Below, piece by piece: positions 4,500 through 46,616 of a stretch of DNA of 64,000 nt. Made by a program: the position numbers and the translations under genes. This stretch comes from Eutreptiella sp. 'Long Island Sound 2002' (lineage: Eukaryota > Euglenozoa > Euglenophyceae > Eutreptiales > Eutreptiaceae), in the NCBI GenBank assembly GCA_964036045.1, contig OZ038380.1, forward strand, positions 167,593,872 to 167,657,871. The letters run 5' to 3'. How positions within the stretch are numbered: the first letter of the stretch is position 1; every line of letters begins with the position of its first letter. Under the pieces are notes generated by a model. The model saw nothing but the letters and a program-made list of their open reading frames with translations. It made no database searches and was not told the origin of the DNA.

Positions 4500-5084
4500 G
4501 GGAATGCCGTGCATGCAGTGCCCACGCAATGCGCACGCAGTGCAAAGGTTTGTATGTCGGCAAATACTCGAACCCTAGTTTTGGCCCCTTGGGGGAGCAC
4601 CTGACGCGGCACGTGTGCGGCGTGGAGAATCAGCCTCCTGGCCCAACCAAGCACCCACAGTTCCCACCCCGGGGGTCCCTCGTCTAGGGATTTTGGGTAT
4701 GATCCGTGATACTCTTGAGTAAGAAATGTCGTTTGTTGCGATACTGTCGGACCCATCGCGCGTTTCAGTGGTGTACATCGCTGTTAAGATCCCATGGGTT
4801 CGACGGCTATCGCAATATTTTCAAGGGTAATGGGACTGCCCTTCACAAATCTGTTCGTATCTTGTTGTACCTCACCCAGTTTTGTATTCGGCGCCAGGTT
4901 CGCCACCCTTCGTATGGCCCTTGGCTCCATGTGCCCCCTCATGTGTTGGTTGTTCTCTTGTCGGCTTTGCTGCTTTGCTGTGCTAACAGACAGGTGGCAG
5001 GTGATCTTTGGTGAGTTTCCCGGCAGGTGCACGCAGTGCGCACGGAGTGCCCACGCAGTGCCCGCGCAGTGCAACAACTTGGCC
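4500..5084. mobile_element. F2 DNA transposon with transposase remnant
   Basis: The left end GGGAATGCCGTGCA and right end CAACTTGGCC are flanked by AAG at 4497-4499 and 5085-5087. The unoccupied R1 target with AAGGGGTC is present at about 26,680 and 29,968. Just inside each end are imperfect 11-bp tandem units of the CGCACGCAGTG type, three on the left and four on the right. The interior carries the C-terminal part of a DDE transposase. In copy A' only the right terminus survives (about 32,180-32,195). Confidence 0.8.
4788..5014 (+). pseudogene. DDE transposase C-terminal fragment
   Basis: The frame contains YRNIFKGNGTALHKSVRILL, then YLTQFCIRRQVRH and SYGPWLHVPPHV. The same order (a VRILLHLTQF core, then YGPWPHVP) appears at 31,210-31,520 after an RVQHLFARLW motif. 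That motif is the position of the VEHxFGxLK block in PIF/Harbinger-type (DDE_Tnp_4) transposases. The catalytic region is not in this copy, so it is inactive by itself. It lies inside an F2 element, which links that family to this transposase. The function is inferred from motif order. Confidence 0.5.
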
Positions 5085-6019: not shown

Positions 6020-6198
6020 GGGGGTGGGGGTGGGGTGAAACATGAGGCTATCCAACGTTGTGGGGTGTAGTATGGTTTGTACGGGCAAGCATACTGCCAA
6101 TGGTAGCAAAACCCCCCAATTTCTTCTGGTCATGTGCGTGCTGTGCCCACGCTTTGCGCGCTGTGCTTGCGCTGTGCGCGCGGTGCACACACGCCCCC
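6020..6198. mobile_element. F1 DNA transposon, short deleted copy
   Basis: A G5 tip at 6020 and an ACGCCCCC tip ending at 6198 are flanked by TTG (6017-6019 and 6199-6201). Subterminal 11-mer-like units of the GCGCTGTGCGC type occur on the right side only. The equivalent element in copy A' is 411 bp (33,104-33,514) with the same flanks, so an internal segment was lost here. No empty site is available for this one. Confidence 0.6.
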
Positions 6199-6717
6199 TT
6201 GGTACTAGGGTACCGGGGACAAGGTTGTGGACCATGGGAATGCCGTGCACGCAGGGCGCACGCAGTGCAAACTTTTTGTTTGTCGGCAACTACTTGAACC
6301 CTACTTTTGGCCTTTTTTTACCGGTTGGTTGTTCAATAACAGATTGTTTTACACTTCTTGTGCATTGAGGATGTGGCACCTTTGAATTGCCACCCGGTTT
6401 CACCCATTTTCAGCCATTTTAGCCCACTTCCCCCGGGGTTGTTTGCACGTTCTTTGTTATCGATGAGTGCTGGATTATGATGATGGGAAATCACCGGATG
6501 TCGTGTACATTCACAATGCAACAAATGGGCAGGTGGGTTGTTACACACTGGATTCTATCCTTCATGGTCATTGCCCTGCTATCTCTAGGAAACAATGTCT
6601 TTGTGGATTCTCTGGAAGAGCCAACACTTGAACCCTCCATCCGCACTCTCGGATCATTGCAAATCAGTAGCATGGCTTATTAGCAACGGCCCACATAGTG
6701 CTGCATATTGCTACAAG

Positions 6718-7447
6718 GGGAATGCCATGCACGCAGTGTGCACGCAGTGCACACGCAGCGCGCACGCAGTGCGAATTTTTGAATGTCGGCCAATACTCAG
6801 ACCCTACTTCCGGCCCCTTTTGACAAGTTTTTGGTTTCATACTGCGGTTTTTTTTAGCTTCCTATGCATTTGGGATTTAGCACATTTGAATTGTCACCCT
6901 TTGTGGCCCAATGTCAACCATTTTTACCCATTTTGCATCCCCCATATTGAACTCTCCCCACTGTGGGGACCCCGAGAAGGCAGGGGCGATGTAGCTATGC
7001 ATAGCCCGCGGACCTTGAGGAGTTTGTGGTACGGCCTTCATCCCCACCACATCACTTATCTCGCTCGCCATCAACAAGTGTGTGGCGTCCACGCTCAGAA
7101 TCACCACCGCCCTCCCCTTCACCCTATTCGCGGTCCCCATCACCCAAGAGACCACGGACAACGCATTCCCCGCGCTCGGAGTCAAGGGACACCTCATCGC
7201 CACCTCCAAGAGCGAAGCCACGGGCACCGAAACACTCGAAGCAAGCGGACTTTACAAGGCTGAGTGGTTTGTTCATAGGGACAGTGGAGTACCAAGTTGA
7301 CGGCAGTTTCGTCGTTCTCATGTGGGCTTTGCTGCTTCGCTGTGCAACCAGTCAGGTGAGTATCCAAGAATACCAGGTGACAGGTATTCTTGGGTGAGTA
7401 TCACGGCCTCTGCGTGCGCAGTATGCACGCGGTGCAACAATTTGGCC
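6718..7447. mobile_element. F2 DNA transposon with a matching empty site
   Basis: The left tip GGGAATGCCATGCACGCAG and right tip CAACAATTTGGCC are flanked by AAG (6715-6717 and 7448-7450). Copy A' has the unoccupied site with a single AAG (34,020-34,022) in otherwise matching sequence. Four 11-bp units of the CACGCAGTGCG type sit inside the left tip. The interior includes an RS-rich open frame at 7026-7397 and a segment near 6960 shared with the F3 element at 1094-1645. It is nested in the F2 element at 6236-7682 and is therefore younger. Confidence 0.9.
7026..7397 (+). pseudogene. RS-rich reading frame inside an F2 element
   Basis: The frame encodes repeated arginine-serine and serine-proline words such as RSESPPPSPSPYSRSPSPK, followed by a lysine-rich stretch. 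Arg/Ser-rich tails are typical of nuclear RNA-binding proteins, but no RNA-binding domain precedes this one. It could be a captured gene fragment or a low-complexity coincidence. No second copy was seen. Confidence 0.3.
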
Positions 7448-7685
7448 AAGTTGGGCCCCAATGGCAGAATGCCTATGTCCCCAGAAGGCTACCACCATCT
7501 TCCAACACACTCACGCAACAGCAGATTGGCGCTTGGCCACGGCCACCAATCACCAAGGATATGAAGACTCTTGTGACGTCTGCATAAATGCAAGGGGGTT
7601 TCCTCCCTTCCTCCTTGGCTAGGTTTCGTTGTCTCTGCACTGCACGCAGTCAGCAGTGCGCACACAGTGCACCAACTTGGCCCAT

Positions 7686-8667: not shown

Positions 8668-11600
8668 TTTATGCCTCCTCTCTCTGCGGAAGGCGGGCAG
8701 GTAACAGGGAACGGTAATGTACTGTCTTGGACCATGTGTCTGAAGTCTCCCACTTGTCGATGGTTTCGGACATTTTCAAAACCAAAAAAACATGTGCCTC
8801 AGCACATTGAGGCTGTATTTCTTTCTGTTCATTTCTCGGTGCATCCACTCTGTGGTTGCTTACCTGCTGAATCCCAGTTCATTGTGTTATGCACATGCTT
8901 GCACCACTTGCGACTGGTGTGTGGACATGCATCGGTTCACCAATCTTAGCGAGCAACCATTGCCGGGTAAGCCGGTTGGGCCCAGCCCCAGCGGCGCCCC
9001 TGTGCACGGCTCAGGAAAGCAGTCCAGGTCGTTGGGTGGGCGTTGGGTATATGGACCAACAAGTTTCTTTGGTCGTGGCAGGAGACCACCCCTGTGAAAA
9101 TGTATCAGTCAGAACTCCTCTCTCCGAGGAAGGCGGGCAGGTAACAGGGAATGGTAATGTACTGTCTCAGACCATTGTCTGAAGCGCCGAATACCCTCGG
9201 ACAGTTGTCGATGGTTTCGGACATTTTCAAAACTAAAACAAGAAAGGTGCCTCAGCACATTGATGCTGTAATTTGTTCTGTTCATTTCTCGGTGCATCCA
9301 TTCTGTGCTTGCTTTCCTGCTGAATCCCAGTTCATTGTGTTGTGTCCTTGTGCACATGCTTGTGCCACTTGCAACTGGTGTGCACACATGCAGAGGGCTC
9401 ACCAATTTTAGCAAGCAACCATTGCCGGGTAAGCAGATTGGGCCCGGCACCAGCGGCAGCACTGTGCACGGCTCAGGAAAGCAGTCCAGGTCGTTGGGTG
9501 GGCGTTGGGTATATGGACCAACAAGTTTCTTTGGTCGTGGCAGGAGACCACCCCTGTGAAAATGTATCAGTCAGAACTCCTCTCTCCGAGGAAGGCGGGC
9601 AGGTAACAGGGAATGGTAATGTACTGTCTCAGACCATTGTCTGAAGCGCCGAATACCCTCGGACAGTTGTCGATGGTTTCGGACATTTTCAAAACTAAAA
9701 CAAGAAAGGTGCCTCAGCACATTGATGCTGTAATTCGTTCTGTTCATTTCTCGGTGCATCCATTCTGTGCTTGCTTTCCTGCTGAATCCCAGTTCATTGT
9801 GTTGTGTCCTTGTGCACATGCTTGTGCCACTTGCAACTGGTGTGCACACATGCAGAGGGCTCACCAATTTTAGCAAGCAACCATTGCCGGGTAAGCCAAT
9901 TGGGCCCGGCACCAGCGGCAGCACTGTGCACGGCTCAGGAAAGCAGTCCAGAACGTTTGGGGGGCGTTGGGTATATGGACCAACAAGTTTCTTTGGTCGT
10001 GGCAGGAGACCACCCCTGTGAAAATGTATCAGTCAGAACTCCTCTCTCCGAGGAAGGCGGGCAGGTAACAGGGAATGGTAATGTACTGTCTCAGACCATT
10101 GTCTGAAGCGCCGAATACCCTCGGACAGTTGTCGATGGTTTCGGACATTTTCAAAACTAAAACAAGAAAGGTGCCTCAGCACATTGATGCTGTAATTTGT
10201 TCTGTTCATTTCTCGGTGCATCCATTCTGTGCTTGCTTTCCTGCTGAATCCCAGTTCATTGTGTTGTGTCCTTGTGCACATGCTTGTGCCACTTGCAACT
10301 GGTGTGCACACATGCAGAGGGCTCACCAATTTTAGCAAGCAACCATTGCCGGGTAAGCAGATTGGGCCCGGCACCAGCGGCACCCCTGTGCACGGCTCAG
10401 GAAAGCAGTCCAGGTCGTTGGGTGGGCGTTGGGTATATGGACCAACAACTTTCTTTGGTCGTGGCAGGAGACCACCCCTGTGAAAATGTATCAGTCAGAA
10501 CTCCTCTCTCCGAGGAAGGCGGGCAGGTAACAGGGAATGGTAATGTACTGTCTCAGACCATTGTCTGAAGCGCCGAATACCCTCGGACAGTTGTCGATGG
10601 TTTCGGACATTTTCAAAACTAAAACAAGAAAGGTGCCTCAGCACATTGATGCTGTAATTTGTTCTGTTCATTTCTCGGTGCATCCATTCTGTGCTTGCTT
10701 TCCTGCTGAATCCCAGTTCATTGTGTTGTGTCCTTGTGCACATGCTTGTGCCACTTGCAACTGGTGTGCACACATGCAGAGGGCTCACCAATTTTAGCAA
10801 GCAACCATTGCCGGGTAAGCAGATTGGGCCCGGCACCAGCGGCAGCACTGTGCACGGCTCAGGAAAGCAGTCCAGGTCGTTGGGTGGGCGTTGGGTATAT
10901 GGACCAACAAGTTTCTTTGGTCGTGGCAGGAGACCACCCCTGTGAAAATGTATCAGTCAGAACTCCTCTCTCCGAGGAAGGCGGGCAGGTAACAGGGAAT
11001 GGTAATGTACTGTCTCAGACCATTGTCTGAAGCGCCGAATACCCTCGGACAGTTGTCGATGGTTTCGGACATTTTCAAAACTAAAACAAGAAAGGTGCCT
11101 CAGCACATTGATGCTGTAATTCGTTCTGTTCATTTCTCGGTGCATCCATTCTGTGCTTGCTTTCCTGCTGAATCCCAGTTCATTGTGTTGTGTCCTTGTG
11201 CACATGCTTGTGCCACTTGCAACTGGTGTGCACACATGCAGAGGGCTCACCAATTTTAGCAAGCAACCATTGCCGGGTAAGCCAATTGGGCCCGGCACCA
11301 GCGGCAGCACTGTGCACGGCTCAGGAAAGCAGTCCAGAACGTTTGGTGGGCGTTGGGTATATGGACCAACAAGTTTCTTTGGTCGTGGCAGGAGACCAAC
11401 CCCGTGAAAATGTATCAGTCAGAACTCCTCTCTCCGAGGAAGGCAGGCAACAGGGAATGGTAATGTACTGTCTCAGACCATTGTCTGAAGCACCGAATAC
11501 CCTCGGACATTCGTCGATGGTTTCGGACATTTTCAAAACTAAAAAAAGAAAGGTGCCTCAGTACAATGATGCTGTACTTCTTTCTGTTCATTTCTCCTCG

Positions 11601-13235
11601 CATCCATTCTGTGCTTGCTTTCCTGCTGAATCCCAGTTCATTGTGTTGTGTCCTTGTGCACATGCTTGTGCCACTTGCAACTGGTGTGCACACATGCAGA
11701 GGGCTCACCAATTTTAGCAAGCAACCATTGCCGGGTAAGCCAATTGGGCACGGCACCAGCGGCAGCACTGTGCACGGCTCAGGAAAGCAGTCCAGAACGT
11801 TTGGTGGGCGTTGGGTATATGGACCAACAAGTTTCTTTGGTCGTGGCAGGAGACCAACCCCGTGAAAATGTATCAGTCAGAACTCCTCTCTCCGAGGAAG
11901 GCAGGCAACAGGGAATGGTAATGTACTGTCTCAGACCATTGTCTGAAGCACCGAATACCCTCGGACATTCGTCGATGGTTTCGGACATTTTCAAAACTAA
12001 AAAAAGAAAGGTGCCTCAGTACAATGATGCTGTACTTCTTTCTGTTCATTTCTCCTCGCATCCATTCTGTGCTTGCTTTCCTGCTGAATCCCAGTTCATT
12101 GTGTTGTGTCCTTGTGCACATGCTTGCGCCACTTGTGGACATGCATCGGTTCACCAATTTTAGCAAGCAACCATTGCCGGGTAAGCAGATTGGGCCCAGC
12201 ACCAGCGGCACCACTGTGGACGGCTCAGGAAAGGAGTCCAGAACGTTTGGTGGGCGTTGGGTATATGGACCAACAACTTTCTTTGGTCGTGGCAGGAGAC
12301 CAACCCTGTGAAAATGTATCAGTCAGAACTCCTCTCTCCGAGGAAGGCGGGCAGGTAACAGGGAATGGTAATGTACTGTCTCAGACCATTGTCTGAAGCA
12401 CCGAATACCCTCGAACAGTTGTCGATGGTTTCGGACATTTTCAAAACTAAAACAAGAAAGGTGCCTCAGTACATTGATGCTGTACTTCTTTCTGTTCATT
12501 TCTCCTCGCATCCATTCTGTGCTTGCTTTCCTGCTGAATCCCAGTTCATTGTGTTGTGTCCTTGTGCACATGCTTGCGCCACTTGTGGACATGCATCGGT
12601 TCACCAATTTTAGCAAGCAACCATTGCCGGGTAAGCCAATTGGGCCCAGCACCAGCGGCAGCACTGTGGACGGCTCAGGAAAGCAGTCCAGAACGTTGGG
12701 TAGACGTTGGGTATATGGACCAACAACTTTCTTTGGTCGTGGCAGGAGACCACCCCTGTGAAAATGTATCAGTCAGAACTCCTCTCTCCGAGGAAGGCGG
12801 GCAGGTAACAGGGAATGGTAATGTACTGTCTCAGACCATTGTCTGAAGCGCCGAATACCCTCGAACAGTTGTCGATGGTTTCGGACATTTTCAAAACTAA
12901 AACAAGAAAGGTGCCTCAGCACATTGATGCTGTAATTCGTTCTGTTCATTTCTCGGTGCATCCACTCTGTGCTTGCTTTCCTGCTGAATCCCAGTTCATT
13001 GTGTTGTGTCCTTGTGCACATGCTTGTGCCACTTGCGACTGGTGTGTGGACATGCATCGGTTCACTAATGTTAGCAAGCAACCATTGCCGGGTAAGCAGA
13101 TTGGGCCCAGCACCAGCGGCACCACTGTGCACGGCTCAGGAAAGGAGTCCAGAACGTTTGGTGGGCGTTGGGTATATGGACCAACAAGTTTCTTTGGTCG
13201 TGGCAGGAGACCACCCCTGCGAGACTGTATCAGTA
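8668..13235. repeat. Satellite array, ten units of 450-462 bp
   Basis: The unit word GAAGGCGGGCAGGTAACAGGG marks starts at about 8668, 9109, 9571, 10,033, 10,495, 10,957, 11,415, 11,873, 12,323 and 12,773. Spacings are 462, then 458, then 450 bp. The first unit is the most diverged. Units at 9109 and 10,495 match each other, as do 9571 and 10,957, giving a three-unit higher-order period of 1386 bp. Each unit has a cysteine-rich open segment and a GTAAGC...CAG segment of about 115 bp, but frames are broken in many units, so I do not call genes here. Confidence 0.9.
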
Positions 13236-14254: not shown

Positions 14255-15012
14255 TTGTGGTAACACCAAGGACATAGTCTCGCGTTCATTTACGATCACG
14301 GCCCGAGCAAATTTGTTCCCCAAGGGATGAACCGTAGTTTATGGATATAAACGATAGTTTATGATGCGGACTGTGTTTTGCAGTTGATTGTCTGACATAA
14401 TGGAGTATTGGGAAGGAGCATGGACCCTGATCCCCGAAGAATGAAAGAGAAGAACCCCCTTTAGTGCTGTGCTTGCTATGTGTTGAAGGGACAACCCAAA
14501 ACGGGCAAGTTCACAAAGAGGGACCGCAACTGTATTGCAGCAGGTGATCTGAAGAGACACAGCTCCATGACAGAGTGTCAGCATGGGGGATTGGTCTTTA
14601 ATGACAGCCTGGGTGGGTGTAGCCCATTTGGCCATGGCACAAAGGTGGGCACACCAGTGGAGTCTTTCAACTTGTACATCTGCGATGGTGTTGCCCCAGG
14701 TCGCTCTGCAGGTATACTCACGGTAACAATATAAGTAGCTCCTTCTTTATCAACCTCGAAACCCTGTCATTGAGAGGGGAAGAAGTTATGGTATGTTCAA
14801 GAGTGTACTTAGATCCTGAGATTGACTCGCACTGTTGTAAAACTATTGCAGCTTCGACAAAAAAAAACATGCACGATGGTGTTGCCATGGGCTACAACTG
14901 CTGGATATACTGGGGCCATATACCTGGGAGAGGGTGATTGGCCAGAGGATAGGAATCAAGACTTCTTCTTTGCTTGAGCTAATCTGAATTGGCAAGCTGT
15001 AGGTTTGATTCC
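14255..15012. other. Copy-A-specific insert of about 750 bp
   Basis: In A' the flanks are joined (at about 37,980). The insert starts near TTGTGGTAACACC and ends at GGTTTGATTCCCCC. It has no supported coding frame and no clear target duplication. The repeated words CGATGGTGTTGCC and GGATATAAACGATAG are present. Confidence 0.45.
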
Positions 15013-15049
15013 CCCGTGCCTTTTCATTTCTTGGTTGGATATTGAATGG

Positions 15050-15375
15050 GGGGGCGTACCGTGCGCTGTGCGCGCGCTGTGCGCGCGCTGTGCGAAAAGT
15101 TGGCCCTTCTCCACCACCGGGAGTTCGGTAAGTTCAGAAGATTGGAAGGATGTCATTGAATGGCTGCTGCAGTGGACGGGGCTATAGGGGGCAGAATTCA
15201 GGTCCCTGGGACCCATGGCAAGCATCAGATGTTTGAAATTTTGAGATTTGAATTGGTTGTGCATGATTCCGCAGGTGGGTGGTTTTCAGGGTTGTTACCC
15301 GGATAATCACCGTAATAATTGGCGCTGTGCGCGCGCTGTGCCCGCGCTGTGCGCGCGCTGTGCGAAAACGCCCCC
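15050..15375. mobile_element. F1 DNA transposon with matching empty site
   Basis: The tips GGGGGCGTACC and AAAACGCCCCC are inverted counterparts, flanked by TGG (15047-15049 and 15376-15378). The empty site with a single TGG is at 38,012-38,014 in A'. Inside each tip are three or four 11-bp units GCGCGCTGTGC. The 326-bp element has no coding capacity and is a miniature element. Confidence 0.92.
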
Positions 15376-15378
15376 TGG

Positions 15379-16559
15379 GTAACATGGATTTGGCTGTTCA
15401 GATGAGTTGTGTTTGCTGCATTTGGCGCTCGTGGGAGGTCATGGTTTTCAGTGGTGCCGGTATGGGTTCTCCCAGCCAAGGTGCATGTGCAAAGTCATCC
15501 CCTTGTGTGGTGATACTACCGCGGGCCTTGCCCTTGATGCACCGCGAGTATCGCTTGCGCTGCCCTTCTGCTCCTACACCCGGGAGCATCCACCTACTCC
15601 CCAACCATGCTCCCTTGGAGCAGGTCCCCGCCCCCGGACCAACCCTCCCTCACCCAGTTGGAGACCCATCAGGCTCCTTCCTTGCTGCCCCTGCAGCCCA
15701 TGCACGCCTCCCGCACCAGCTTCAAATCCTTCGTTTATGGATATAAACTATAGTTTAGGTTGACCGTATTTTTCAGCTGATTGTTTGTGACACATAACGG
15801 AGTTTGGGTAGGAGCATGGGCCTTGAACCCCGGAGAATGAAAGAGATGAACCCACTTGACTGCTGTGCATGTAATGTGTTGAAGGGACATACCTAAACCC
15901 TAGGGTAGGGCAACAACTCTCTGACCGCCCACAGGGTACCCCGCCCTCACGCAAATGGACGCCCGCACCCAGCCATTTTGAGAAGGGGTTCCCAATCAGA
16001 AAGTGCCTCTGGGAACCCCCTGGGGAGGTCCGAGAAGGCAAATACAAAAACGGCCCATTTGGGCCGTTTGGACCAGGACCGAAAATTTTCCGCATGTAGG
16101 CACCCAAGAGGCTATGAAAACACCCTTCGTCCAATTGGACCACCTACATGTGTTTGGTTTGGAGTCGGGGCCAACCCTATTGGAGAAGGGGGGGGGGTTC
16201 CCGCTACCCCCTTCTCGGTTTCACCGCACAACAAGCATGACCCTACCCCACTACGAAGAGGACTACGACGAGGATACGACGGTGGTGCGAATATGGATGG
16301 AAGTAGGGGTCGCCTCCGTGGTGGACCTCTACAAGACGATCAACTGGTCACCGACCAGAGCACGTCCCGGGCCATCAAAGACTCCAAACTACCTTGGAGC
16401 GGGGGACGCCACGTCGCCACTCTGTCTAGCGTTGTCTCCCATGAGGGCTACATTTTCGAATACCAATGCCCCACCGCAATGTACGACTACCTGTAGAAGC
16501 AGCTCACGGCCTTGAGCATTCCATACGTGGCCTTCCAAGGCACGGATCGCACTATATGA
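15379..16559. other. Duplicated region with decayed coding traces
   Basis: This matches 38,015-38,388, 38,610-38,855 and 40,576-40,900. The two copies have different middles (15,975-16,230 here; about 1.7 kb in A'). The right part has coding-like text (GYIFEYQCPTAMYDYL, then LTALSIPYVAFQGTD) broken by stops. It is probably the end of a dead gene of unknown family. The F1 element at 16,560 inserted immediately after it. Confidence 0.45.
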
Positions 16560-17378
16560 GGGGGTGTTGCCTGAACCGTGCGCGCACCGTGCGCGCACCG
16601 TGCGCGCACCGTGCGTCCTTTTGCGTATTCTGTGTCCACCAGAGCGACAATGCCTGAATCTGAGCTGCCCTGGCTTGTCGCCGGACTGCCTGTGTACTAC
16701 CACCGCTCCAACGGGGATAGGGTGTCGGCCACTGTCGTTGACCTTTCTCCAAGAGGTGGGCGTCGCGTCTCTATTCGGTACGAATTGGGTGGTGAAGAGG
16801 TCTTGTACGAGCATGCACCCGAGGAGCGGTTGGAGTTTGCAATTGTGACTGCTGAGAGCCCCGATTCCCCCCAACCTGTGCACCATGAGGCGCCGATGGA
16901 CGCTTTGCTGGAGCCCCAATTACCTGAAGTGGAAGCTGAAGCCCCTAGAATTGATGATCATGAGCCAGAATGCTGTGGCGGATGAAATTGAAATTCCCGT
17001 AACCCAACCAGTGTTGTCGCTTGTGTTGTCGCCTGTGCATGGTTTGTTACGGAGGTGCGTGCAAGGTGCAGAAATTGGGAGCCTGGAACCTGTGACAAGC
17101 ATCAGATTCAAAAAAAAAAAATTCCCGGTACGCCAATAGGGGCTGCAGGGTGCAGAAAATAGGACCCTGGAACCTGTGACAAGCATCAGACTAAAAATGG
17201 AAGAATCCTGGTATGCCAGTATGGACTGCAAGGTGCAGAAATCAGGACCCTGGGTGTGTTTCTATGGGGGCCATTCAACGGGGTACAAGTTGGGCAACCA
17301 TCCCAAAAACATTGAACCGTGCGCGCACCGTGCACGCACCGTGCGCGCACCGTGCGCGCACCGTGCGACAACGCCCCC
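16560..17378. mobile_element. F1 DNA transposon carrying the tudor-like gene
   Basis: The left tip GGGGGTGTTGCC and right tip GACAACGCCCCC are inverted counterparts, flanked by TGA (16557-16559 and 17379-17381). The empty site with a single TGA is at 40,902-40,904. Tandem 11-mers GTGCGCGCACC lie inside both tips (about 16,577-16,615 and 17,318-17,367) in the same direct orientation. At 819 bp it is the largest F1 copy and contains an intact small ORF. The segment at about 17,075-17,245 has imperfect repeats around the word CCTGTGACAAGCATCAGA. Confidence 0.92.
16650..16985 (+). CDS. Small tudor-like domain protein carried by an F1 transposon
   Basis: The 111-residue frame starts at the ATG at 16,650. 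Residues 12-60 form the repeated domain, with LPVYYHRSNGDRVSATVVDL, then RRVSIRYELGGEEVLY and APEERLE. The rest is acidic and proline-rich, ending ECCGG. The spacing of aromatic and hydrophobic residues fits a small beta-barrel of the tudor, SH3 or chromo kind, but no family is assigned. It is the only copy with both domain halves inside verified transposon ends. That position suggests an accessory protein of the element, perhaps guiding it to chromatin; this is inference. A start further upstream in the same frame would read through the 11-bp repeats and is unlikely. Confidence 0.5.
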   Translation: MPESELPWLVAGLPVYYHRSNGDRVSATVVDLSPRGGRRVSIRYELGGEEVLYEHAPEERLEFAIVTAESPDSPQPVHHEAPMDALLEPQLPEVEAEAPRIDDHEPECCGG

Positions 17379-17547
17379 TGAACGTCCTAAAGGGCCGGCC
17401 ACGGGATGAGCACGGCGATGCGCAGCCCATACAAGAGGTGGTGGACCTGGAGGTGGAAATCAAGGTGTCTCTGGAGCTGCTGGATTGAGATCAGACCCAA
17501 TCTCATCCCTATTTTCTGTAACACATCCCGCTGAACAAATACCAATT

Positions 17548-33103: not shown

Positions 33104-33514
33104 GGGGGTGAAACCCAGGTTTAGACACATTTAAACCACAGTTTAAACCATAGTTTACACCACATGCTGCTCGTTCCTCTCTTAGTCAATCTTTAGTTTA
33201 GACGACGGTTGGTATGGCACGCAGCCCAGCCACCAAGCCTACCCGACAGTTTCCGTTGATGATGTGAGATCTTCAGTGCAGATTTACGTGCAGGGCAGGT
33301 TAGGGACATTGCAAGGTGTGGATTGAGCAGGAGGGCAGCAGGATCCCACTTTACACATGAGGCTATCCAACATTGTGGGGTGCACTATGGTCTGTACAGG
33401 CAAGAATATTGCCAATGGTAGCAAAACCCCCCAATTTCTTCTGGTCATGTGCGTGCTGTGCCCACGCTTTGCGGCGCTGTGCTTGCGCTGTGCGCGCGGT
33501 GCACACACGCCCCC
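33104..33514. mobile_element. F1 DNA transposon, longer copy
   Basis: The G5 tip GGGGGTGAAACC and the tip ending CACACGCCCCC are flanked by TTG (33,101-33,103 and 33,515-33,517). GCGCTGTGC-type units are found inside the right tip. The 411-bp element matches the deleted version at 6020-6198. Confidence 0.65.
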
Positions 33515-33551: not shown

Positions 33552-34260
33552 GGGAATGCCGTGCACGCAGTGCAATCTTTTTGTTTGCCGGCAACTTCTT
33601 GAACCCTACTTTTGGCCTTTTTTTACCGGTTGGTTGTTCAATAACAAATTGTTTTACACTTCTTGTGCATTGAGGATGTGGCACCTTTGAATTGCCACCC
33701 GGTTTCACCCATTTTCAGCCATTTTAGCTCATTTCCCCGCGGTTTTGTTGCACGTTCTTTGTTATCGATGAGTACTGGATTATGATGATGGGAAATCACC
33801 GGATGTCGTGTACATTCACAATGCAACAAATGGGCAGGTGGGTTGTTACACACTGGATTCCATCCTTCATGGTCATTGCCCTGCTATCTCTAGGAAACAA
33901 TGTCTTTGTGGATTCTCTGGAAGAGCTAACACTTGAACCCTCCATCCGCACTCTCGGATCATTGCAAATCAGTAGCATGGCTTATCAGCAACGGCCCACA
34001 TAGTGCTGCATATTGCTACAAGTTGGGCCCCAATAGCAGAATGCCTGTGTCCCCAGAAGGCTACCACCATCTTCCAACACACTCACGCAACGCAACAGCA
34101 GATTGGGGCTTGGCCACGGCCACCAATCACCAAGGATATGAAGACTCTTGTGACCCTCTGCATACATGCAAGGGGGTTTCCTCCCTTCCTCCTTGGCTAG
34201 GTTTCATTGTCTCTGCACTGCACGCAGTCAGCAGTGTGCACGCAGTGCACCCTTTTGGCC
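33552..34260. mobile_element. F2 DNA transposon, un-nested copy
   Basis: The ends GGGAATGCCGTGCACGCAG and TTTTGGCC are flanked by CAT (33,549-33,551 and 34,261-34,263), interrupting the tudor-like coding sequence as at 6236-7682. This copy has one 11-bp unit fewer inside the left tip and keeps the empty AAG site (34,020-34,022) for the nested element. A conserved stretch at about 33,770-33,910 reads VYIHNATNGQVGCYTLD in one frame and may be an element protein piece. Confidence 0.8.
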
Positions 34261-34404: not shown

Positions 34405-35029
34405 AAAGAAGTTTCACACAGTGCCTGTGCAGAGGGCACGCGCACAGAAGTAACGCCATGTTTAAATGCGATTCACACTACCGGTGTTGGGCATGGAAAG
34501 CTGCATTTTTGAAGTGTTACGGGTTGGTGGTACCATTCCGCCCCGCGAGGGGTTGTTGTGATGATTTGGATCAGGTTTGCCACATTGAAGAGCTCATCTG
34601 TCATTTTGAGATTGCACTGTCCTGAAGAGCCTTTGGATTGTCCTTCCTCAGCCCTTGCCCCAGGAGGCGGTGAGTGAGACAACCTCTGGGCCATTCTCGT
34701 TGAACTCTGGTTTGTGGTAAAGGGCTCACGACTGCTGAGGAACCGTGCATGTTGTCAGCCACAATGCAAAGGGGAGGCCCAACAGCCCAATCATCCATGC
34801 CGGCTGCCCAGGAGGGGGGTTTCTCGGGAGTGGCAATATCCCCATTTTTCTGGCTTGTTGGCTTTGTGGAGTGGATCTTGCATCTTTGCATGTGTTGTGG
34901 ACCTTTGATGTGTTGTGCACTGTGCTGAGACACTGGGATTCTAGGTGTTGTGTCTGTCTGGAGCTCTCCTCACTGAACGGCTCAGTGCTCCCTCATTGAG
35001 GCTTCAAGCAGACGGTATTTGTGTGTACA
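34405..35029. repeat. Duplicate spacer and R2 copy 5
   Basis: 34,405-34,679 matches 7827-8099, and 34,680-35,029 is an R2 copy matching 8100-8440. Confidence 0.65.
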
Positions 35030-37172
35030 GCACATTGAGGCTGTAATTCTTTCTGTTCATTTCTCGGTGCATCCACTCTGTGGTCGCTTTCCTGCTGAAT
35101 CCCAGTTCATTGTGTTATGCACATGCTTACGCCACTTTTTACTGGTGTGTGGACATGCATCGGTTCACCAATTTTAGCAACCAACCATTGCCGGGTAAGC
35201 ATATTGGGCCCAGCACCAGCGGCTGCACTGTGCACGGCTCAGGAAAGCAGTCCAGAACGTTGGGTGGGCGTTGGGTATATGGACCAACAAGTTTCTTTGG
35301 TCGTGGCAGGAGACCACCCCTGTGAAAATGTATCAGTCAGAACTCCTCTCTCTGAGGAAGGCGGGCAGGTAACAGGGAATGGTAATGTACTGTCTCAGAC
35401 CATTGTCTGAAGCGCCGAATACCCTCGAACAATTGTCGATGGTTTCGGACATTTTCAAAACTAAAAAAAGAAAGGTGCCGCAGCACATTGATGCTGTAAT
35501 TCTTCCTGTTCATTTCTCCTCGCATCCATTCTGTGGTTGCTTTCCTGCTGAAACCCAGTTCATTGTGTCCTTGTGCACATGCTTGTGCCACTTGCGACTG
35601 GTGTGTGGATATGCATCGGTTCACCAATTTTAGCAACCATTGCCGGGTAAGCCAATTGGGCCCAGCACCAGCGGCACCCCTGTGCACGGCTCAGGAAAGC
35701 AGTCCAGAACGTTGGGTGGGCGTTGGGTATATGGACCAACAACTTTCTTTGGTCGTGGCAGGAGACCACCCCTGTGAAAATGTATCAGTCAGAACTCCTC
35801 TCTCCGAGGAAGGTGGGCAGGTAACAGGGAATGGTAATGTACTGTCTCAGACCATTGTCTGAAGCGCCGAATACCCTCGAACAGTTGTCGATGGTTTCGG
35901 ACATTTTCAAAACTAAAACAAGAAAGGTGCCTCAGCACATTGATGCTGTAATTTGTTCTGTTCATTTCTCGGTGCATCCACTCTGTGGTTGCTTTCCTTC
36001 TGAATCCCAGTTCATTGTGTTGTGTCCTTGTGCACATGCTTGTGCCACCTGCGACTGGTGTGTGGACATGCATCGGTTCACCAATTTTAGCAAGCAACCA
36101 TTGCCGGGTAAGCCAATTGGGCCCAGTACCAGCGGCTGCACTGTGCACGGCTCAGGAAAGCAGTCCAGAACGTTTGGTGGGCGTTGGGTATATGGACCAA
36201 CAAGTTTCTTTGGTCGTGGCAGGAGACCAACCCTGTGAAAATGTATCAGTCAGAACTCCTCTCTCCGAGGAAGGCGGGCAGGTAACAGGGAATGGTAATG
36301 TACTGTCTCAGACCATTGTCTGAAGCGCCGAATACCCTCGAACAGTTGTCGATGGTTTCGGACATTTTCAAAACTAAAACAAGAAAGGTGCCTCAGCACA
36401 TTGATGCTGTAATTTGTTCTGTCCATTTCTCGGTGCATCCACTCTGTGGTTGCTTTCCTGCTGAATCCCAGTTCATTGTGTTGTGTCCTTGTGCACATGC
36501 TTGTGCCACCTGCGACTGGTGTGTGGACATGCATCGGTTCACCAATCTTAGCAAGCAACCATTGCCGGGTAAGCCAATTGGGCCCAGTACCAGCGGCTGC
36601 ACTGTGCACGGCTCAGGAAAGCAGTCCAGAACGTTGGGTGGGCGTTGGGTATATGGACCAACAAGTTTCTTTGGTCGTGGCAGGAGACCACCCCTGTGAA
36701 AACCTATCAGTCAGAACTCCTCTCTCCAAGGAAGGCGGGCAGGTAACAGGGAATGGTAATGTACTGTCTCAGACCATTGTCTGAAGCGCCGAATACCATC
36801 GAACAGTTGTCGATGGTTTCGGACATTTTCAAAACTAAAACAAGAAAGGTGCCTCAGCACATTGATGCTGTAATTTGTTCTGTTCATTTCTCGGTGTATC
36901 CATTCTGTGGTTGCTTTCCTGCTGAATCCCAGTTCATTGTGTTGTGTCATTGTGCACATGCTTGTGCCACTTAAGACTGGTGTGTGGACATGCATCGGTT
37001 CACCAATTTTAGCAAGCAACCATTGCCGGGTAAGCAGATTGGGCTCAGCACCAGCGGCACCCCTGTGCACGGCTCAGGAAAGCAGTCCAGAACGTTGGGT
37101 CGGCGTTGGGTATATGGACCAACAACTTTCTTTGGTCGTGGCAGGAGACCACCCCTGTGAGACTGTATCAGT
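35030..37172. repeat. Satellite array, about 4.7 units
   Basis: Unit starts are at about 35,337, 35,789, 36,250 and 36,711 after a partial unit. Spacings are 452, 461 and 461 bp. The right end has the same junction as the array at 8668-13,235 (GAGACTGTATCAGTAGG). Units here mostly keep a 135-codon open frame on the plus strand, with GTAAGC read through. One unit has an in-frame TAA near 36,971. Confidence 0.88.
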
Positions 37173-37239: not shown

Positions 37240-37516
37240 CCCCCTGGCCAGCGCAAGCGAGCATGCCAGTGCGACGGTGGGAGCTAAAGTGGGACACAAC
37301 AAACGCTACGCCCCAAACTCAGTCCGAAGGCGACAATGCCCTGAACCCTGTAGAAGCAGCCCGACTCTTACCCCATCCAGGGACGAGGGACGGGACGAAC
37401 TGCAAAGCACTGTCTGCGTGACACGGACAATCATGGAACTGAGATGGCGATGAAGGTCGTGAGGCAGGCGCGGCTGGAGCTAAGTGGCGGGTCCACACCT
37501 GACCAATTGAGGCCCC
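37240..37516. mobile_element. Copy-A'-specific insertion in a C run
   Basis: This 276-bp segment from CTGGCCAGCGCAAGCG to CAATTGAGGCC is absent from copy A at 13,798. It is flanked by C runs that hide any target duplication. No coding frame is supported. Confidence 0.5.
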
Positions 37517-38375
37517 CCCTGTCCATCGTCCATCTCCATGCTGAGTTGTGTAGTGGTAGTTGATGTCGAAGTAAGCTGCTGACCGAGGGCGATGAGATGA
37601 CTGAAGCCAGACTATGCAACATTAGATAGCCCAATGGGCAAACTCACTCCAACATTCAGCACTGGTTTGAGCGTGACCACATAGCCTGTGTCAGGGGGGT
37701 ATTGGTCGCTGAGTATCTCCTGCTTCACGACCCATGTCCATCTCCATCACTGGGGAGTTCCCAAGGAAAACAGTTCCATGTTTTGTGTGGTGGTTTTGCT
37801 GCACCGTTTTGGCTCTTTGCCTGTTTTGATGCAATAGGGGTCCCACCTTTATTGTGGGGACCCAATCTTCGTACAGTGTGGGTGCCCCTTAATCCCCTCT
37901 CCTGCTCTCGACTCGTTTCGCAGCTTCCATTAATCTCACTGCAGAGACTAGACAGCCGTTGCCGCACTGTGGGCACTGTCGTGCCTTTTCGTTTCTTGGT
38001 TGGACATTGAATGGGTAACATGGAGTTGGCTGTTCAAATCAGTCGTGTTTGCTGCATTTGGTGCTCGTGGGAGGTCCAGGTTTTCAGTGGTGACGGTACG
38101 GGTTCTCCCAGCCAAGGTGCATGTGCAAAGTCATACCCTTGTGTGGTGATACTACCGCCGGGCTTGCCCTTGATGCACTGCGAGTATCGCTTGCGCTGCC
38201 CTTCTGCTCCTACACCCGGGATCCGCGTACTGCCCCACCCATGCTCCCTCGGAGCAGGTCCCCCGCCCCCAGACCAACCCTCCCTCACCCAGTTGGAGAC
38301 CCATCAGGCTCCTTCCTTGCTGCCCCTGCTGCCCATGCATGTGCCAGCGCCTCCCGCACTAGCTTCACACCCTTA
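37517..38375. other. Duplicated spacer
   Basis: This matches 13,798-14,254 and 15,013-15,732, with the F1 empty site at 38,012-38,014. No gene is seen. Confidence 0.5.
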
Positions 38376-40575: not shown

Positions 40576-41011
40576 GCAAGCATGACCCTACCCCACTATG
40601 ACGAGGACTACGAAGAGGACATGGCAGTGGGGCGAACATGGATGGAAGTAGGGGTCGCCTATGTGGTGGACCTCTACAAGACGATCAACCGGTCACCGAC
40701 CAGAGCACGTCCCGGGCCATCAAGGACTCCAAACTACCTTGGAGCGGGGGACGCCACGTCGCCACTCCGTCGGGCCTTTTCCCCCATGAGGGCTACATTT
40801 TCGAATACCAATGCCCCACCGCACTATACGACTACCTGTAGAAGCAGCTCACGGCCTTGAGCATTCCATACGTGGCCTTCCAAGGCACGGATCGCACTAT
40901 ATGAACGTCCTAAAGGGCCGGCCACGGGGTGAGCACGGCGATGCGCAGCCCATACAAGAGGTGGTGGACCCGGAGGTGGAAATCAAGGTGTCTGTGGAGC
41001 TGCTGGATTGA
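40576..41011 (+). pseudogene. Decayed gene shared with 16,232-17,485
   Basis: Coding-like text FEYQCPTALYDYL, LTALSIPYVAFQGTDRT and an acidic tail (QEVVDPEVEIKVSVELLD) lies in different frames, so there are at least two frameshifts. The empty F1 site TGA at 40,902-40,904 falls inside it. The family is unknown. Confidence 0.4.
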
Positions 41012-41435: not shown

Positions 41436-42766
41436 TTCTGTTTGCCGCAGGTGAACAGAGGTTTCACAATTTTGTTGTTGTTCTCAGCTTTTTGTTATTA
41501 TTTGTGAGTCGGCTTGTGCTTACGAACATTTTTCTGGATGGCCGACTTCATCGAATTCAGTGATTACCTTCTGGCTGATGTGCGTAAGTCTGTGAGGAAG
41601 AGACTGCAGCGAAGGATTGGGCGCTGGCCCGGGCAAAGGTCTTAAAACAGCTTCGAAGCTTGGGTGACCGTCGGGGTGCCTGGATCAAGCAGTTTGCCTC
41701 CTCAGTCCAATTTTCGGGGGATTCGGACACTCTCATCGAATTCATAATCGGGTATGTCCTTACGGCTGATGTTCGACCTGGAGTCTGGACTTTTTGAGCC
41801 CGCCGCATCTGGAACCTCTGGGCCGTCTTTTGGATCCATCTGTCAAGCGGTTGTTGGAGGAACAGTCAAAATTGATCTCTAAATTGACGGAGCAAGTGAA
41901 TTCTTTCGCGTCAGCGCCTGCGAAGCCGGACATGGCTATTACTCATTTGTCCCTGAAGTCGCTTTTCAAAATAAGCTCGGCTTATAACAACCCCCAGTGG
42001 ATTACTCGGCTGCTTTGGCTCCTCAGGGCCTTTGTCTTGAAACAACCCCTTTCGCCTGCAGACATGCGGATGTCTGATAAATGGTCTGAAGAAGAACAAC
42101 GAGGCCTGCTGCTTAACTTGAAGGACGACCAAAAGGCTGACGATACGTTGTGGACGGCCAGGAAGTCGGACGATGCGGTTGTTCCCATGGACAACGGACA
42201 GAACTCCCCCGATGCAAGTACTGCAGCTGCCATCCCCACTGCCGAGGTTTCGCCGGTCATGGTGCAAGTCGTGGAGGCGCCGTGGGCACTGACGTACACG
42301 GCGGTAAAAAAGTATAAAGAAAAATACGAGTCGGATTCCTCCCAGTCCAAACAGGCCGCAGGAGCACCGGAGTTCACCGAGGGCCTGACGGCAGCAGGTG
42401 CACGGCTGAAGAAAGTGATGGCGAAGAGGTTCAAGGTGGTCGATGGAGAGGAGTATTTTGAGGTTCATCGCGGGGAATGGGTGAAGTCCAGTTCCCAACC
42501 AGTCGGGCCGTGTAAAACCTCCAGGGGAAAAGGGAAAATTGTCCGCCACTAGGTGTGGCAGTGCCCGGAATGAAAAGAGGCCAGTGAGGGGAGGTGGAAG
42601 GAGGTGCATGGGGTTTGGTGGGGCGAAGCAGCAAGTGCCAAGCCCATGGGGGGAAAAACAATTTAAACTAAAGTTTATGCAGTAAACTTGAGTTCAAATT
42701 GGGCAAGGGGATGGGAGGAGGGCACCTTGTGAACACTCGCCTAGTGTTTGTTTGTTTTGTGGTGTG
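41436..42766 (+). mobile_element. Left part of a tyrosine-recombinase-type retroelement
   Basis: The insertion starts at TTCTGTTTGCCGCAGG directly after GGATCCGAAAC. It contains a gag-like frame and a 184-bp segment (42,583-42,766) that recurs inverted at 51,512-51,696 in the recombinase element. A truncated LINE interrupts it at about 42,767. Confidence 0.6.
41536..42552 (+). pseudogene. Gag-like protein of the retroelement
   Basis: ATG at 41,536 opens MADFIEFSDYLLADVRKSVR. The text continues in a second frame (ALARAKVLKQLRSLGDRRGA, then LIEFIIGYVLTADVRPG) and in a third from 41,794 (LLEEQSKLISKLTEQV through SRGKGKIVRH). Two frameshifts therefore break one reading. The last part (about 250 codons) has a coiled-coil-like start, an SDKWSEEEQRGLL helix and a basic tail. 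No zinc knuckle is present. It is called gag-like only from its position upstream of the shared element segment and its composition. Confidence 0.45.
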
Positions 42767-42773
42767 TGTGTGT

Positions 42774-45700
42774 GGTTTCTACTGCCCAGAGACCATCCTT
42801 CACGACCCGGAGGCAATGGAAGATCTGGAGACATCTCTCAAGTCTATCACGTCAACAGGGGATCAATGGTGGGAAGAGGCGCTGAGCTGCATCCAAAAGA
42901 AGGCGATCAGCCATCAAAGGGAGCATAAAAACAAAAAGCAGTCGGTAGAACTACAGGCCCTGCGGTTCCTGCGTGGATCCACGAGAGACTCTGTCGCACC
43001 AGCGGTCTACCAATTTCTATCATCACTGGGGATTGCAGCAACAGATGCAGCAACAGCCTACACCCTCCTGGTGGGGGTGTATGAAAAGGCTCAGCGTGAC
43101 ACAACGGGCATGGAAACACTGTCCAAGCTCAATGGGGTGATCACGACCGGGGAAACCTCAGGAGATCCGAGAGCGCAAAGGAACGAATTGTATCGGTTAA
43201 TGCGGGAGTTGCAGGAGCGAAAGAAACTTCAACAGCTGGTATCCAGGACAGGCTCGGCGATACGGGGGGCAAAGGCGGTGGCAAAAGAGTTGGTGGTTCA
43301 TTGGGACAAAGTGTCCACACCGACGGGATCCACCGAAGAAGATTGTGTGGCCTATCCGAAGTCGTTAGGAGTGGAACAGCGGCTGCGCAAGGCAGGTCGA
43401 CTTCTTTTCAGGCAACTATCCCAGGACATTGTTCATGAAGGCCTTAAGAGGCTGAACAGCAACAGCTCCCCTGGTTTGGATGGTTTCTCGGCAAAATTCT
43501 TCAAGAGGTTCTCGGACATCTTCGAACCGCAGATGTATGACTCAATGAAACGTTTCCTCGAAGTGGGCAAAATGCCGGAGACATGGACCTCGGGAGTGGT
43601 GACAATGATCCCCAAGACGAAGGCGATGCAAACACCAGATTCGCTCCGACCAATTGCACTGCAAACTACAAGGCAGAAGTGGCTCACCAACATCCTCCTG
43701 ATCCAGTTAGAGGATGTACTTCTCCACTGTATCCCATCACAGCAAACAGGTTTCCTTCGACACAGAAGCATACTTCAGCATGTCTATGGGTCACGGGCAC
43801 TCTGGGATGGCCTAAGTGAAGGAGCGGCGTTATCAGTGGACTTCAGAAATGCCTTCCCCACGATGTCTCACGAGATGGTGTCAGCAGCTCTGGGTCTAAT
43901 GTGCATACCATTCTTGTATATCCGTCTGATTCTACACCTTTTGCGAGCTCCGTATCTATACTCCGTCGGAAAAGGATACGTCCCAGGCGTATACCACCAC
44001 CCGAGGGCAGGCACACGCCAGGGGGATCCACTCTCCCCGGCGCTGTTCTCCCTGGTGGCATCCTTCGTGATTTTCCCACTACAAGACCTGGGTCCAGTAC
44101 TGACTGTCATGATGTATGCAGATGACCTCATCATTTTCTTTGATGGAAGAGCCAACCCACAGCTGTTGAAAAGGGTATGGGAAGTGGTTTCACGTTTCGG
44201 ACAGTTTTCGGGGTTGAAGGTCAACCTCAACAAAACGGCAGCGATAGTTCGCAACTGTGGGGGAATGGAGTGGGCGAGGTGCTTTCGGGACATTGGAGTG
44301 GAAGTCAAAAACTTCGTCAAGTATCTGGGTGTACGCTTGGGGAATATTCGGCACCAACAAGACGATCAAGGATGGGGGCTGACGATGGAGCAGGCCTTCG
44401 CACCAGCGCTGCAAGAGGCCTTCCGTCGCGCAAGGGTGGTATCCACGTTGCAACTGTCCATGAACGAACGAGCATTCATGCTGACATCATGGATTCTGCC
44501 GGTCGTGGCATGGGTATCCAAGGCATATTACGCCCCAGTCTCGGTGATCAGACAAGTGAAGTTGGTGTATCACGTGACTATGGGTACCAACAGCTGGGGA
44601 ATCACCTTACCAATCCTCTCACGACCAAGAACGCAAGGGGGACTGGCACTACCAGAACCAGGACTGTTTCTTATGCACCAGGCGGCGGCTCCGTTCGTTA
44701 GCCTGTTGGGAGACCCTCACAAATTCCCTGACAAGGCAGTGGAGACCTTCTATGCATGGGCAACAGCCATAGGGTTCACACCATCCAAGGACAACCTTCC
44801 ATATATTCAACTGGGCTTGGTCAGAACGGCAGATCTCACATTTCTGGGATGGTCGGGGAAGGCACACTCCAACATTCAGCGAGTGGCCCCGCAGGTGGCC
44901 CCCTCGGCAAACCGGGACCGCCTGCCGTTGTGGCACTCTGTGTATTTCCGAAATGAGTTCCGCTGCTCCTACTACAACACGAAATTGATCCGGCAGGGGG
45001 TGCTGACGTGGGGTCAATTCCAAAGCTTGGAGGACGCAAGATTGTTCAATGCACTGCCTCGGACATGGAAAGGGGTCTACAATCATGGCGGGCGACTCCT
45101 CAACAAAGTCATGCCACAAGGGGGGTTTGATACCCCCGCAGTCCATACCCAAAACTGGACCAGGGCATGGCTGCTCCAGTTCTACGCCTCTCAGCCAGGG
45201 GTCCGCGACCCGCAAACACCGGAGGTATGGGAACAGCTGGCACAGGCACAGCTACCACCGAGGACTCAAGACTTTGCGCGAAAGGCGCTCTGGCACAAAC
45301 TGACCGTACATGCAAGAGTCTACAAGAGGTCAGGCACTGACAAGTGCCCGGTTTGCTCACAAAAGGAGACGATCAAACACGCGATGGTCGAATGCCCCAT
45401 GTTCAAAGCGGCAGCGGCGGTTATACAGCACTACTATGGCCAGGTGACAACTGATAACGGGACATCCACAGTTCGAGATATGATGGAGTCTGACGACCAA
45501 GAATGGTTGCTGAAAACGAACCAAGGCTGGGCGATGTGGTCAGCAAGAAGTGCCCACTGGCGATATCGATGCGAAGTCAAGGCAGGAGCGTCGCCGGTGT
45601 TCGCGTCATACCTTACAACATGGCTAAGGGAGCTATGTGAGTGGGTGGGATTTTACACAGGGGAGCACAGGGAACATTGGAAAGGATTTCAAAAATCACT

Positions 45701-46616
45701 GGAGCAATTTCGAGACACCGGAGTGCAGCTACGACAAGGGGAAGTGCAAGTACATGGGGGACTGAATGCGTGGTGGCAAACACACACGGAATGCTTCACC
45801 CAAGAAAAATCAGCCGACAATCAAAGTTGGCAAAGGGCAACGAAGTCACGCCCGAAGCGCCCGAGGCAGGCAGGCCCGGGAGTGCTACAAGGAGTGCAAG
45901 AACTGATTGCAGAATTGGTGGAGAAGGGCTACAGGATAGTGTACACTCATGGATCGTCGAAGCGACTGGGCCACAAGGACATGCGCAGGGCCGGGGGATT
46001 TGGCGTGTTCGCGGCGGAAGACGACCAAGGACCAGAAGTGCGTTTCTGTGGCTACGTACCAACACATTACAGGCAAACAAACAACGGAGCAGAGCTTTGG
46101 GCAGCCGTGGAAGCCTTACAGGGTTTCTGGGTGCCAAAACTGGCAATCCTCACCGACTCACAATACCTGCAGCTGGGAGCGACTGGCAGGGCCCAGCACT
46201 GGAGGTCAAAGGGATGGACAACCACATCTGGAAAACTGCAAGTCCACGTCCCAGTCTGGGAAATGCTGCTCCAGGAAATGGCGACGCCGGGAAGAGAAGT
46301 CAGGTGGGAACATGTCCCAGCACATGTCAACGTGCAGGGAAATGAGATGGCGAATGGATTGGCCATGGAAGGCATGTGTTCAAGCCCACTGTGGTCACAA
46401 CATGTTGCACCAAAATCATCATCTGGGTCAGAGTCCACGGTAGGTTTGAGGGGAGGGTCGGGGTCAGAGTCAGAGGGCACAAGGGCACTCTGGTCATCCC
46501 TGGGTATGGTACCCATGGATAGTGATGAACTGACAGGGGAAGCATCCGGGGAGCCAGCGCCACGTGGGATGGGACCGTACTCCTCAAGCAATACAGAAAC
46601 CCAGGGGGTGCCGTAA
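42774..46616 (+). CDS. 5'-truncated LINE ORF2: reverse transcriptase, zinc motif, RNase H
   Basis: The frame is open for about 1280 codons from the truncation point to the stop at 46,616. There is no endonuclease domain, which would have been upstream. Motifs in order: SSPGLDGFSAKFF, LRPIALQ, ALSVDFRNAFPTM, RQGDPLSPALFSL, YADD (codons 44,115-44,126), the LKVNLNKT block, CPVC with H and C (about 45,347), and RNase H from 45,942. The RNase H first Asp is His (YTHGSS); the Glu (NNGAELWAA) and second Asp (LTDSQY) are kept. The product would copy its own RNA at a nicked target, but the 5' loss makes this copy dead on arrival. The long intact frame shows the insertion is young. Confidence 0.85.
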   Translation, partial: GFYCPETILHDPEAMEDLETSLKSITSTGDQWWEEALSCIQKKAISHQREHKNKKQSVELQALRFLRGSTRDSVAPAVYQFLSSLGIAATDAATAYTLLVGVYEKAQRDTTGMETLSKLNGVITTGETSGDPRAQRNELYRLMRELQERKKLQQLVSRTGSAIRGAKAVAKELVVHWDKVSTPTGSTEEDCVAYPKSLGVEQRLRKAGRLLFRQLSQDIVHEGLKRLNSNSSPGLDGFSAKFFKRFSDIFEPQMYDSMKRFLEVGKMPETWTSGVVTMIPKTKAMQTPDSLRPIALQTTRQKWLTNILLIQLEDVLLHCIPSQQTGFLRHRSILQHVYGSRALWDGLSEGAALSVDFRNAFPTMSHEMVSAALGLMCIPFLYIRLILHLLRAPYLYSVGKGYVPGVYHHPRAGTRQGDPLSPALFSLVASFVIFPLQDLGPVLTVMMYADDLIIFFDGRANPQLLKRVWEVVSRFGQFSGLKVNLNKTAAIVRNCGGMEWARCFRDIGVEVKNFVKYLGVRLGNIRHQQDDQGWGLTMEQAFAPALQEAFRRARVVSTLQLSMNERAFMLTSWILPVVAWVSKAYYAPVSVIRQVKLVYHVTMGTNSWGITLPILSRPRTQGGLALPEPGLFLMHQAAAPFVSLLGDPHKFPDKAVETFYAWATAIGFTPSKDNLPYIQLGLVRTADLTFLGWSGKAHSNIQRVAPQVAPSANRDRLPLWHSVYFRNEFRCSYYNTKLIRQGVLTWGQFQSLEDARLFNALPRTWKGVYNHGGRLLNKVMPQGGFDTPAVHTQNWTRAWLLQFYASQPGVRDPQTPEVWEQLAQAQLPPRTQDFARKALWHKLTVHARVYKRSGTDKCPVCSQKETIKHAMVECPMFKAAAAVIQHYYGQVTTDNGTSTVRDMMESDDQEWLLKTNQGWAMWSARSAHWRYRCEVKAGASPVFASYLTTWLRELCEWVGFYTGEHREHWKGFQKSLEQFRDTGVQLRQGEVQVHGGLNAWWQTHTECFTQEKSADNQSWQRATKSRPKRPRQAGPGVLQGVQELIAELVEKGYRIVYTHGSSKRLGHKDMRRAGGFGVFAAEDDQGPEVRFCGYVPTHYRQTNNGAELWAAVEALQGFWVPKLAILTDSQYLQLGATGRAQHWRSKGWTTTSGKLQVHVPVWEMLLQEMATPGREVRWEHVPAHVNVQGNEMANGLAMEGMCSSPLWSQHVAPKSSSGSESTVGLRGGSGSESEGTRALWSSLGMVPMDSDELTGEASGEPAPRGMGPYSSSNTETQGVP

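Follow-up and report, generated by a model that had tools for sequence, protein, structure and literature searches.

Two short insertions in a 64,000-bp stretch of DNA from Eutreptiella sp. 'Long Island Sound 2002' (the whole stretch analysed, hereafter the window) are very probably non-autonomous class II transposons that belong to one family group and are moved in trans by a putative DDE-type transposase. The two elements, F1a and F1b, and a sister family, F2, display the features that define this class: fixed ends, inverted tips, a duplication of constant length (6/6 events), empty sites for F1a, F1b and the F2 element F2a, and, for F1b-type sequences, many copies in unrelated flanks (24 flanks; 60 clusters).

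Ends, flanking triplets and empty sites

By direct reading and by script, the left tips are GGGGGCGT in F1a and GGGGGTGT in F1b, together GGGGG[C/T]GT, and both elements end in ACGCCCCC. This bears out the inverted tips starting G5YGT that had been described in the first-pass annotation. Each element in the first block of the duplicated region is bordered by two copies of a triplet, and the second block carries a single copy, with nothing between the flanks at either empty site. The features are as follows.

15050..15375, no strand assigned: element F1a, 326 bp, GGGGGCGT...ACGCCCCC, without a transposase open reading frame (ORF)
15047..15049, no strand assigned: target-site duplication TGG, left of F1a
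15376..15378, no strand assigned: target-site duplication TGG, right of F1a
38012..38014, no strand assigned: F1a empty site with a single TGG, second block
16560..17378, no strand assigned: element F1b, 819 bp, GGGGGTGTTG...CAACGCCCCC
16557..16559, no strand assigned: target-site duplication TGA, left of F1b
17379..17381, no strand assigned: target-site duplication TGA, right of F1b
40902..40904, no strand assigned: F1b empty site with a single TGA, second block
17060..17253, no strand assigned: internal tandem repeat of F1b, 83-bp unit, 2.3 copies

A 52-bp part of the internal tandem repeat of F1b is 79% identical to F1a. The TGG and TGA flanks and the single-triplet sites at 38,012 and 40,902, all claimed earlier, were confirmed, and the alignment to the second block proposed along with them gave the expected junctions. 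After removal of the element and one triplet, the joined flanks of F1b aligned over 200/200 bp at 97.5% identity and those of F1a over 135/200 bp at 91.9%, the left flank of F1a failing to align because an insertion found only in the first block (14,260-15,015) sits there. The difference between the blocks probably reflects a gain in the first and not a clean loss from the second; an empty site could alternatively result from precise excision in the other block.

Comparison of the two blocks also returned F2a as a 730-bp insertion that starts with GGGAATGCC and ends with TTGGCC. F2 is a sister family of F1, with the same duplication length (3 bp) and an 11-bp unit related to that of F1 (GCACGCAGTGC in F2, GCGCTGTGCGC in F1). 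The same ends, GGGAATGCC...TTGGCC, occur at three events with duplications AAG, AAG and CAT and one empty site.

4500..5084, no strand assigned: element F2b, GGGAATGCC...TTGGCC, AAG flanks, 11-mer arrays at both ends
6718..7447, no strand assigned: element F2a, 730 bp, AAG flanks, nested in the first-block copy of F2c, with a clear 11-mer array confined to the left end
34020..34022: F2a empty site, AAG, second block
6236..7682, no strand assigned: element F2c, first block, CAT flanks, containing F2a
33552..34260, no strand assigned: element F2c, second block, CAT flanks, without F2a

F2b lacks an empty site because the second block is partly deleted at that place. Compared by eye, the right end of F2b (GTGCAACAACTTGGCC) and that of F1b (GTGCGACAACGCCCCC) are equal at 11/16 positions. 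The right end of F2a does not form a clean 11-bp array (period-11 self-match 0.43).

A third F1 element, F1c, had been listed among those proven by empty sites. Its TTG flanks stand, and the proof does not, since F1c occupies both blocks and is therefore without an empty site. The left end of F1c has no 11-mer array.

6020..6198, no strand assigned: element F1c, first block, 179 bp, TTG on both sides
33104..33514, no strand assigned: element F1c, second block, 411 bp, TTG on both sides

Across six distinct events (three F1 and three F2, with duplications TGG, TGA, TTG, AAG, AAG and CAT), the flanks match over 3 bp in 6/6 cases and over 4 bp in 0/6, the F2 ends having been placed with the triplets in view. 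Extending the comparison to lengths of 4 to 8 bp likewise gave 0/6. No event matched when one end alone was moved by one base (0/6), and 3/6 matched when both ends were moved together; random triplet pairs in the window match at a rate of 1.7%. Tip pairs with equal triplets within 2 kb occur twice in the window, versus none in 50 Markov shuffles. We also ran a scan that left the G5 tips unspecified. Its terms were GG[G/C] ends, two or more 11-bp steps in phase close to either end, equal flanking triplets and complementarity of the first three bases. From 13 left and 15 right candidate ends it returned F1a and F1b alone; F1c and F2, which do not conform to these terms, were not recovered. A 19-base array pattern gave 16 matches versus 0 expected, counting both strands and overlaps, with some places counted twice. 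The tips, triplets and empty sites thus support the original reading of these elements as DNA transposons with a 3-bp duplication.

The insertion beside F1a is 756 bp long (14,260-15,015), is present in the first block only and has GTG on both sides, with a second-block counterpart at 37,981-37,983. No inverted tips were seen in it, and its right end reads GGTTTGATTCCCCC, which we take to be like a tRNA B box. Conversely, a second-block-only insertion lies at about 37,245-37,515 between poly-C and CTG, with ambiguous ends. The duplicated block also carries a tandem satellite, with 10 copies of a 462-bp unit at 8,675-13,234 and 4.7 copies of a 461-bp unit at 35,028-37,172.

Subterminal arrays and the open reading frame of F1b

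Just inside their tips, both elements carry arrays of an 11-bp unit.

15063..15094, + strand: F1a left array, unit GCGCTGTGCGC, 2.9 copies
15322..15364, + strand: F1a right array, unit GCGCTGTGCGC, same orientation as the left array, 3.9 copies
16575..16615, + strand: F1b left array, unit ACCGTGCGCGC, 3.7 copies
17316..17367, + strand: F1b right array, unit ACCGTGCGCGC, same orientation as the left array, 4.7 copies

At these four ends the period-11 self-match is 0.88-1.00, versus 0.00-0.10 for period 10 and 0.46-0.68 for periods 9 and 13. The internal 11-mers of the first-pass annotation are therefore present, with one correction: in F1a and in F1b their direction is the same at the two ends, so they form no part of the inverted repeats. 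A unit of 11 bp is close to one helix turn, so the same face of the DNA would repeat along each array. The F1b array contains the palindrome GTGCGCGCAC, and its orientation may therefore matter little to a dimeric protein. When folded as single-stranded DNA, the right end of F1b gave z = -4.15 and the other three ends -1.0 to -2.5. In CACTA elements, subterminal repeats are binding sites for the transposase or a partner protein, and by analogy the in-phase 11-bp arrays are most likely candidate binding sites of the same kind.

F1b further encloses a short ORF.

16650..16985, + strand: F1b ORF starting MPESELPW, in a frame open from 16,578, with the first 69 residues predicted to form a Tudor/SH3-like barrel

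A 69-residue stretch beginning at MPESELPW, modelled from an alignment with seven relatives, gave a fold prediction with a pLDDT of 79, and the longer F1b ORF (135 aa) was poorly predicted, with a pLDDT of 44. On this model, the short ORF is predicted to be Tudor/SH3-like. Pfam gave just two matches on F1b-type proteins, both under the cut-off. Two of these proteins were used as queries in sequence searches of PDB, where P0067 had no match and P0065 had three weak ones. In P0065, a related Tudor-like stretch precedes QSTLHAFF, a sequence that presumably fits the PCNA-binding PIP-box pattern. The Tudor-like ORF may have a role in transposition.

No transposase linked to these ends was found, and F1a and F1b encode none. 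Among proteins of about 359-1,143 residues, the F1b domain was found in 0/162 candidates at E <=1. Four scans of a viral contig collection with tip, array and internal patterns gave 0 matches each, in a collection from which records very near the genome of the window were possibly excluded. In a genome contig collection, the F1b protein gave 105 pattern matches, none of them confirmed, and the tip pattern gave 8 matches, all titled bacterial, at a chance estimate of about 4. Rfam and tRNA scans of the window returned nothing. Overall, the family was found in none of the sources searched and is of a well-known kind.

Independent copies and target choice

Having defined the ends within the window, we read further copies through their predicted proteins, an indirect form of the genome-wide tip check proposed in the first-pass annotation. 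The F1b ORF has 60 relatives (clusters, with 274 member sequences summed) among the proteins of about 74-236 residues covered by the search, all with the source 'ena' and from contigs of up to 2.5 Mb. An array-and-tip search, which scored the 7,995 candidates sharing most words, added six proteins with weak matches (E 0.06-4.5), accepted because F1b sequence can be recognised in them directly, and brought the set to 66 F1b-type proteins. Several of the predicted proteins start in flanking sequence and continue into the element, and their residues thereby mark where it begins. Ends were readable at 30 left and 8 right junctions; all 38 fit five G's or C's, with a consistent tip position, in a count that identified junctions by the translated tip and so passes over copies with other tips. 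In the rest of the 66 proteins, a translated left tip behind a flank was not visible.

The residues next to the tips agree with the nucleotide ends. All 19 left junctions reading GVLPE are preceded by a residue with a codon ending in G (background product 0.007), and all 11 reading GCCLNR, where the prior codon is xGG, have W, R or G just before the tip (background 0.156; product 1.3e-9). Right junctions of the forms ATTP? (5/5) and RQRP? (3/3) fit CCCCC. We examined 28 flanks, and among the 24 with at least 10 residues none resembles another at E 0.01. The fit of the junctions and the unrelated flanks imply that, at junctions recognised by their tips, independent insertions keep five G's at the start and five C's at the end. 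Both ends could be read in two proteins. In P0064 they are compatible with a duplicated CAT. P0029, which is missing much of its interior and may be a recombinant, is inconsistent with a 3-bp duplication and counts as a result against the 3-bp rule. One apparent left junction, in P0036, was dropped as its motif is a chance match.

The duplicated triplets have no motif among the junctions visible to the protein method, which is blind to any that would put a stop in frame, such as, in one of the frames, a duplication with TA as its last two bases. At the GVLPE junctions (n = 19), the duplication ends in AA (4), AT (4), GG (3), CG/AG (2), CT/TT (2), and GA, TG, AC and GT (1 each). At the GCCLNR junctions (n = 11), the last base is A or C in 5, G in 4 and T in 2. 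Compatibility with defined targets is low: TWA is possible at 4/19 GVLPE and 5/11 GCCLNR left junctions, CWG at 3/19 and 4/11, ANT at 7/19 and 2/11, and TNA at 5/19 and 5/11, respectively.

Placement among DNA transposons

Several classes can be set aside on the flanks and tips. Elements of the hAT, MULE, Merlin, P and KDZ groups need a duplication longer than 4 bp, a length at which none of the six events matches. Helitrons, which to our knowledge make no target duplication, are ruled out by the matching triplets, and a retroposed sequence is ruled out by the exact inverted G/C tips and the lack of a tail. In a window made up of a diverged, repeat-rich duplication, with many further insertions and deletions, the gaps might be assembly errors or plain segmental deletions, but the ends are exact to the triplet, the structure is common to independent loci and copies lie in unrelated flanks, which makes such an origin extremely improbable.

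A tentative home, less likely than not, is the CACTA/EnSpm group (CMC clade), with tips that would have drifted from CAC to GGGGG. CACTA elements are defined by CACTA tips, 3-bp duplications and subterminal units of 10-20 bp in direct and inverted orientation (PMC8978399, in part), and CMCT termini with duplications of 2-5 bp have been described (PMC12730594, in part). F1 appears to be built like a non-autonomous CACTA copy, with a motif-free 3-bp duplication, short inverted tips and subterminal units of a suitable length (10-20 bp). Set against the CACTA definition, the duplication agrees, the units agree in part and the tip sequence does not. In contrast to CACTA elements, the tips are GGGGG[C/T]GT in F1 and GGGAATGCC/TTGGCC in F2, and a CAC or CA..TG tip is absent from all six events and also from the 38 junctions read in proteins, though those were found by their G5 tip. 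The arrays, moreover, are direct only, and neither Transposase_21 nor any other transposase was seen in F1a or F1b. A likeness to En/Spm and CACTA elements has been described for Jordan, an element of Volvox (PMC5093975, in part).

The other candidates are tied to F1 chiefly by the length of the duplication. The ends of ISAzo13, the bacterial relative of Zator elements, begin with G. Membership of Zator seems unlikely: a 3-bp duplication, as in F1, is reported for both Zator and ISAzo13 (PMC10045372, in part). No transposase was found, and neither a Zator tip sequence nor arrays are mentioned in the excerpts of the literature compared. AcademX elements, with duplications of 3 or 4 bp (PMC10045372, in part), are compatible in length, but F1 has no coding part for comparison and no Academ coding was seen, and we consider this assignment improbable. 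NuwaI tips usually start with GGG and have 3-bp duplications (PMC4482050, in part), as would suit the often G-rich tips and 3-bp duplication of the PIF/Harbinger group (PHIS). Unlike PIF/Harbinger, Nuwa and Pangu, F1 and F2 lack a TWA, CWG, ANT or TNA target: the duplications read TGG, TGA, TTG, AAG, AAG and CAT, and the junctions show low compatibility with all four. We therefore rejected PHIS as a firm home, and membership of any sort is very unlikely.

The earlier remark that these features match no obvious named family stands for the portions of the literature compared, where G5 tips, a free 3-bp target and direct 11-bp arrays coincide in no family; within the open-licence sources, in the parts consulted, we found no description of a G5 tip combined with an 11-bp array. 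A still undescribed DNA transposon superfamily would account for this, and 51 DNA/Unknown families in the alga Ectocarpus (PMC12477816, in part) indicate that such gaps are common, unclassified DNA transposons being frequent in at least one little-studied eukaryote. However, the comparison was made without Repbase and tips alone rarely define a superfamily, so we regard this explanation as unlikely. Its more specific form, an undescribed cut-and-paste superfamily with a Tudor-like chromatin reader at the start of the protein, is less probable still; if true, insertion sites may be chosen by histone mark and not by DNA sequence.

We favor non-autonomous class II elements mobilized in trans. An autonomous copy elsewhere would supply a DDE-type transposase, which would cleave the GGGGG[C/T]GT tips at their outermost G; by cut and paste, the element would then enter a staggered cut of 3 bp, made in nearly any sequence, and repair would turn the stagger into the 3-bp duplication. 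Because its ends, its duplication length and three empty sites are known to the base, the family can serve as a clean query in the search for the autonomous copy; it is families with precisely defined ends that lend themselves to assignment. Should that copy fuse the Tudor-like domain to a transposase, it would provide a test of chromatin reading at landing.

Coding sequence of other kinds is also present in the window, namely two long LINE-type reverse transcriptase ORFs, at 42,672-46,616 (also with RNase H and zf-RVT) and 59,556-63,926, and a leucine-rich-repeat ORF.
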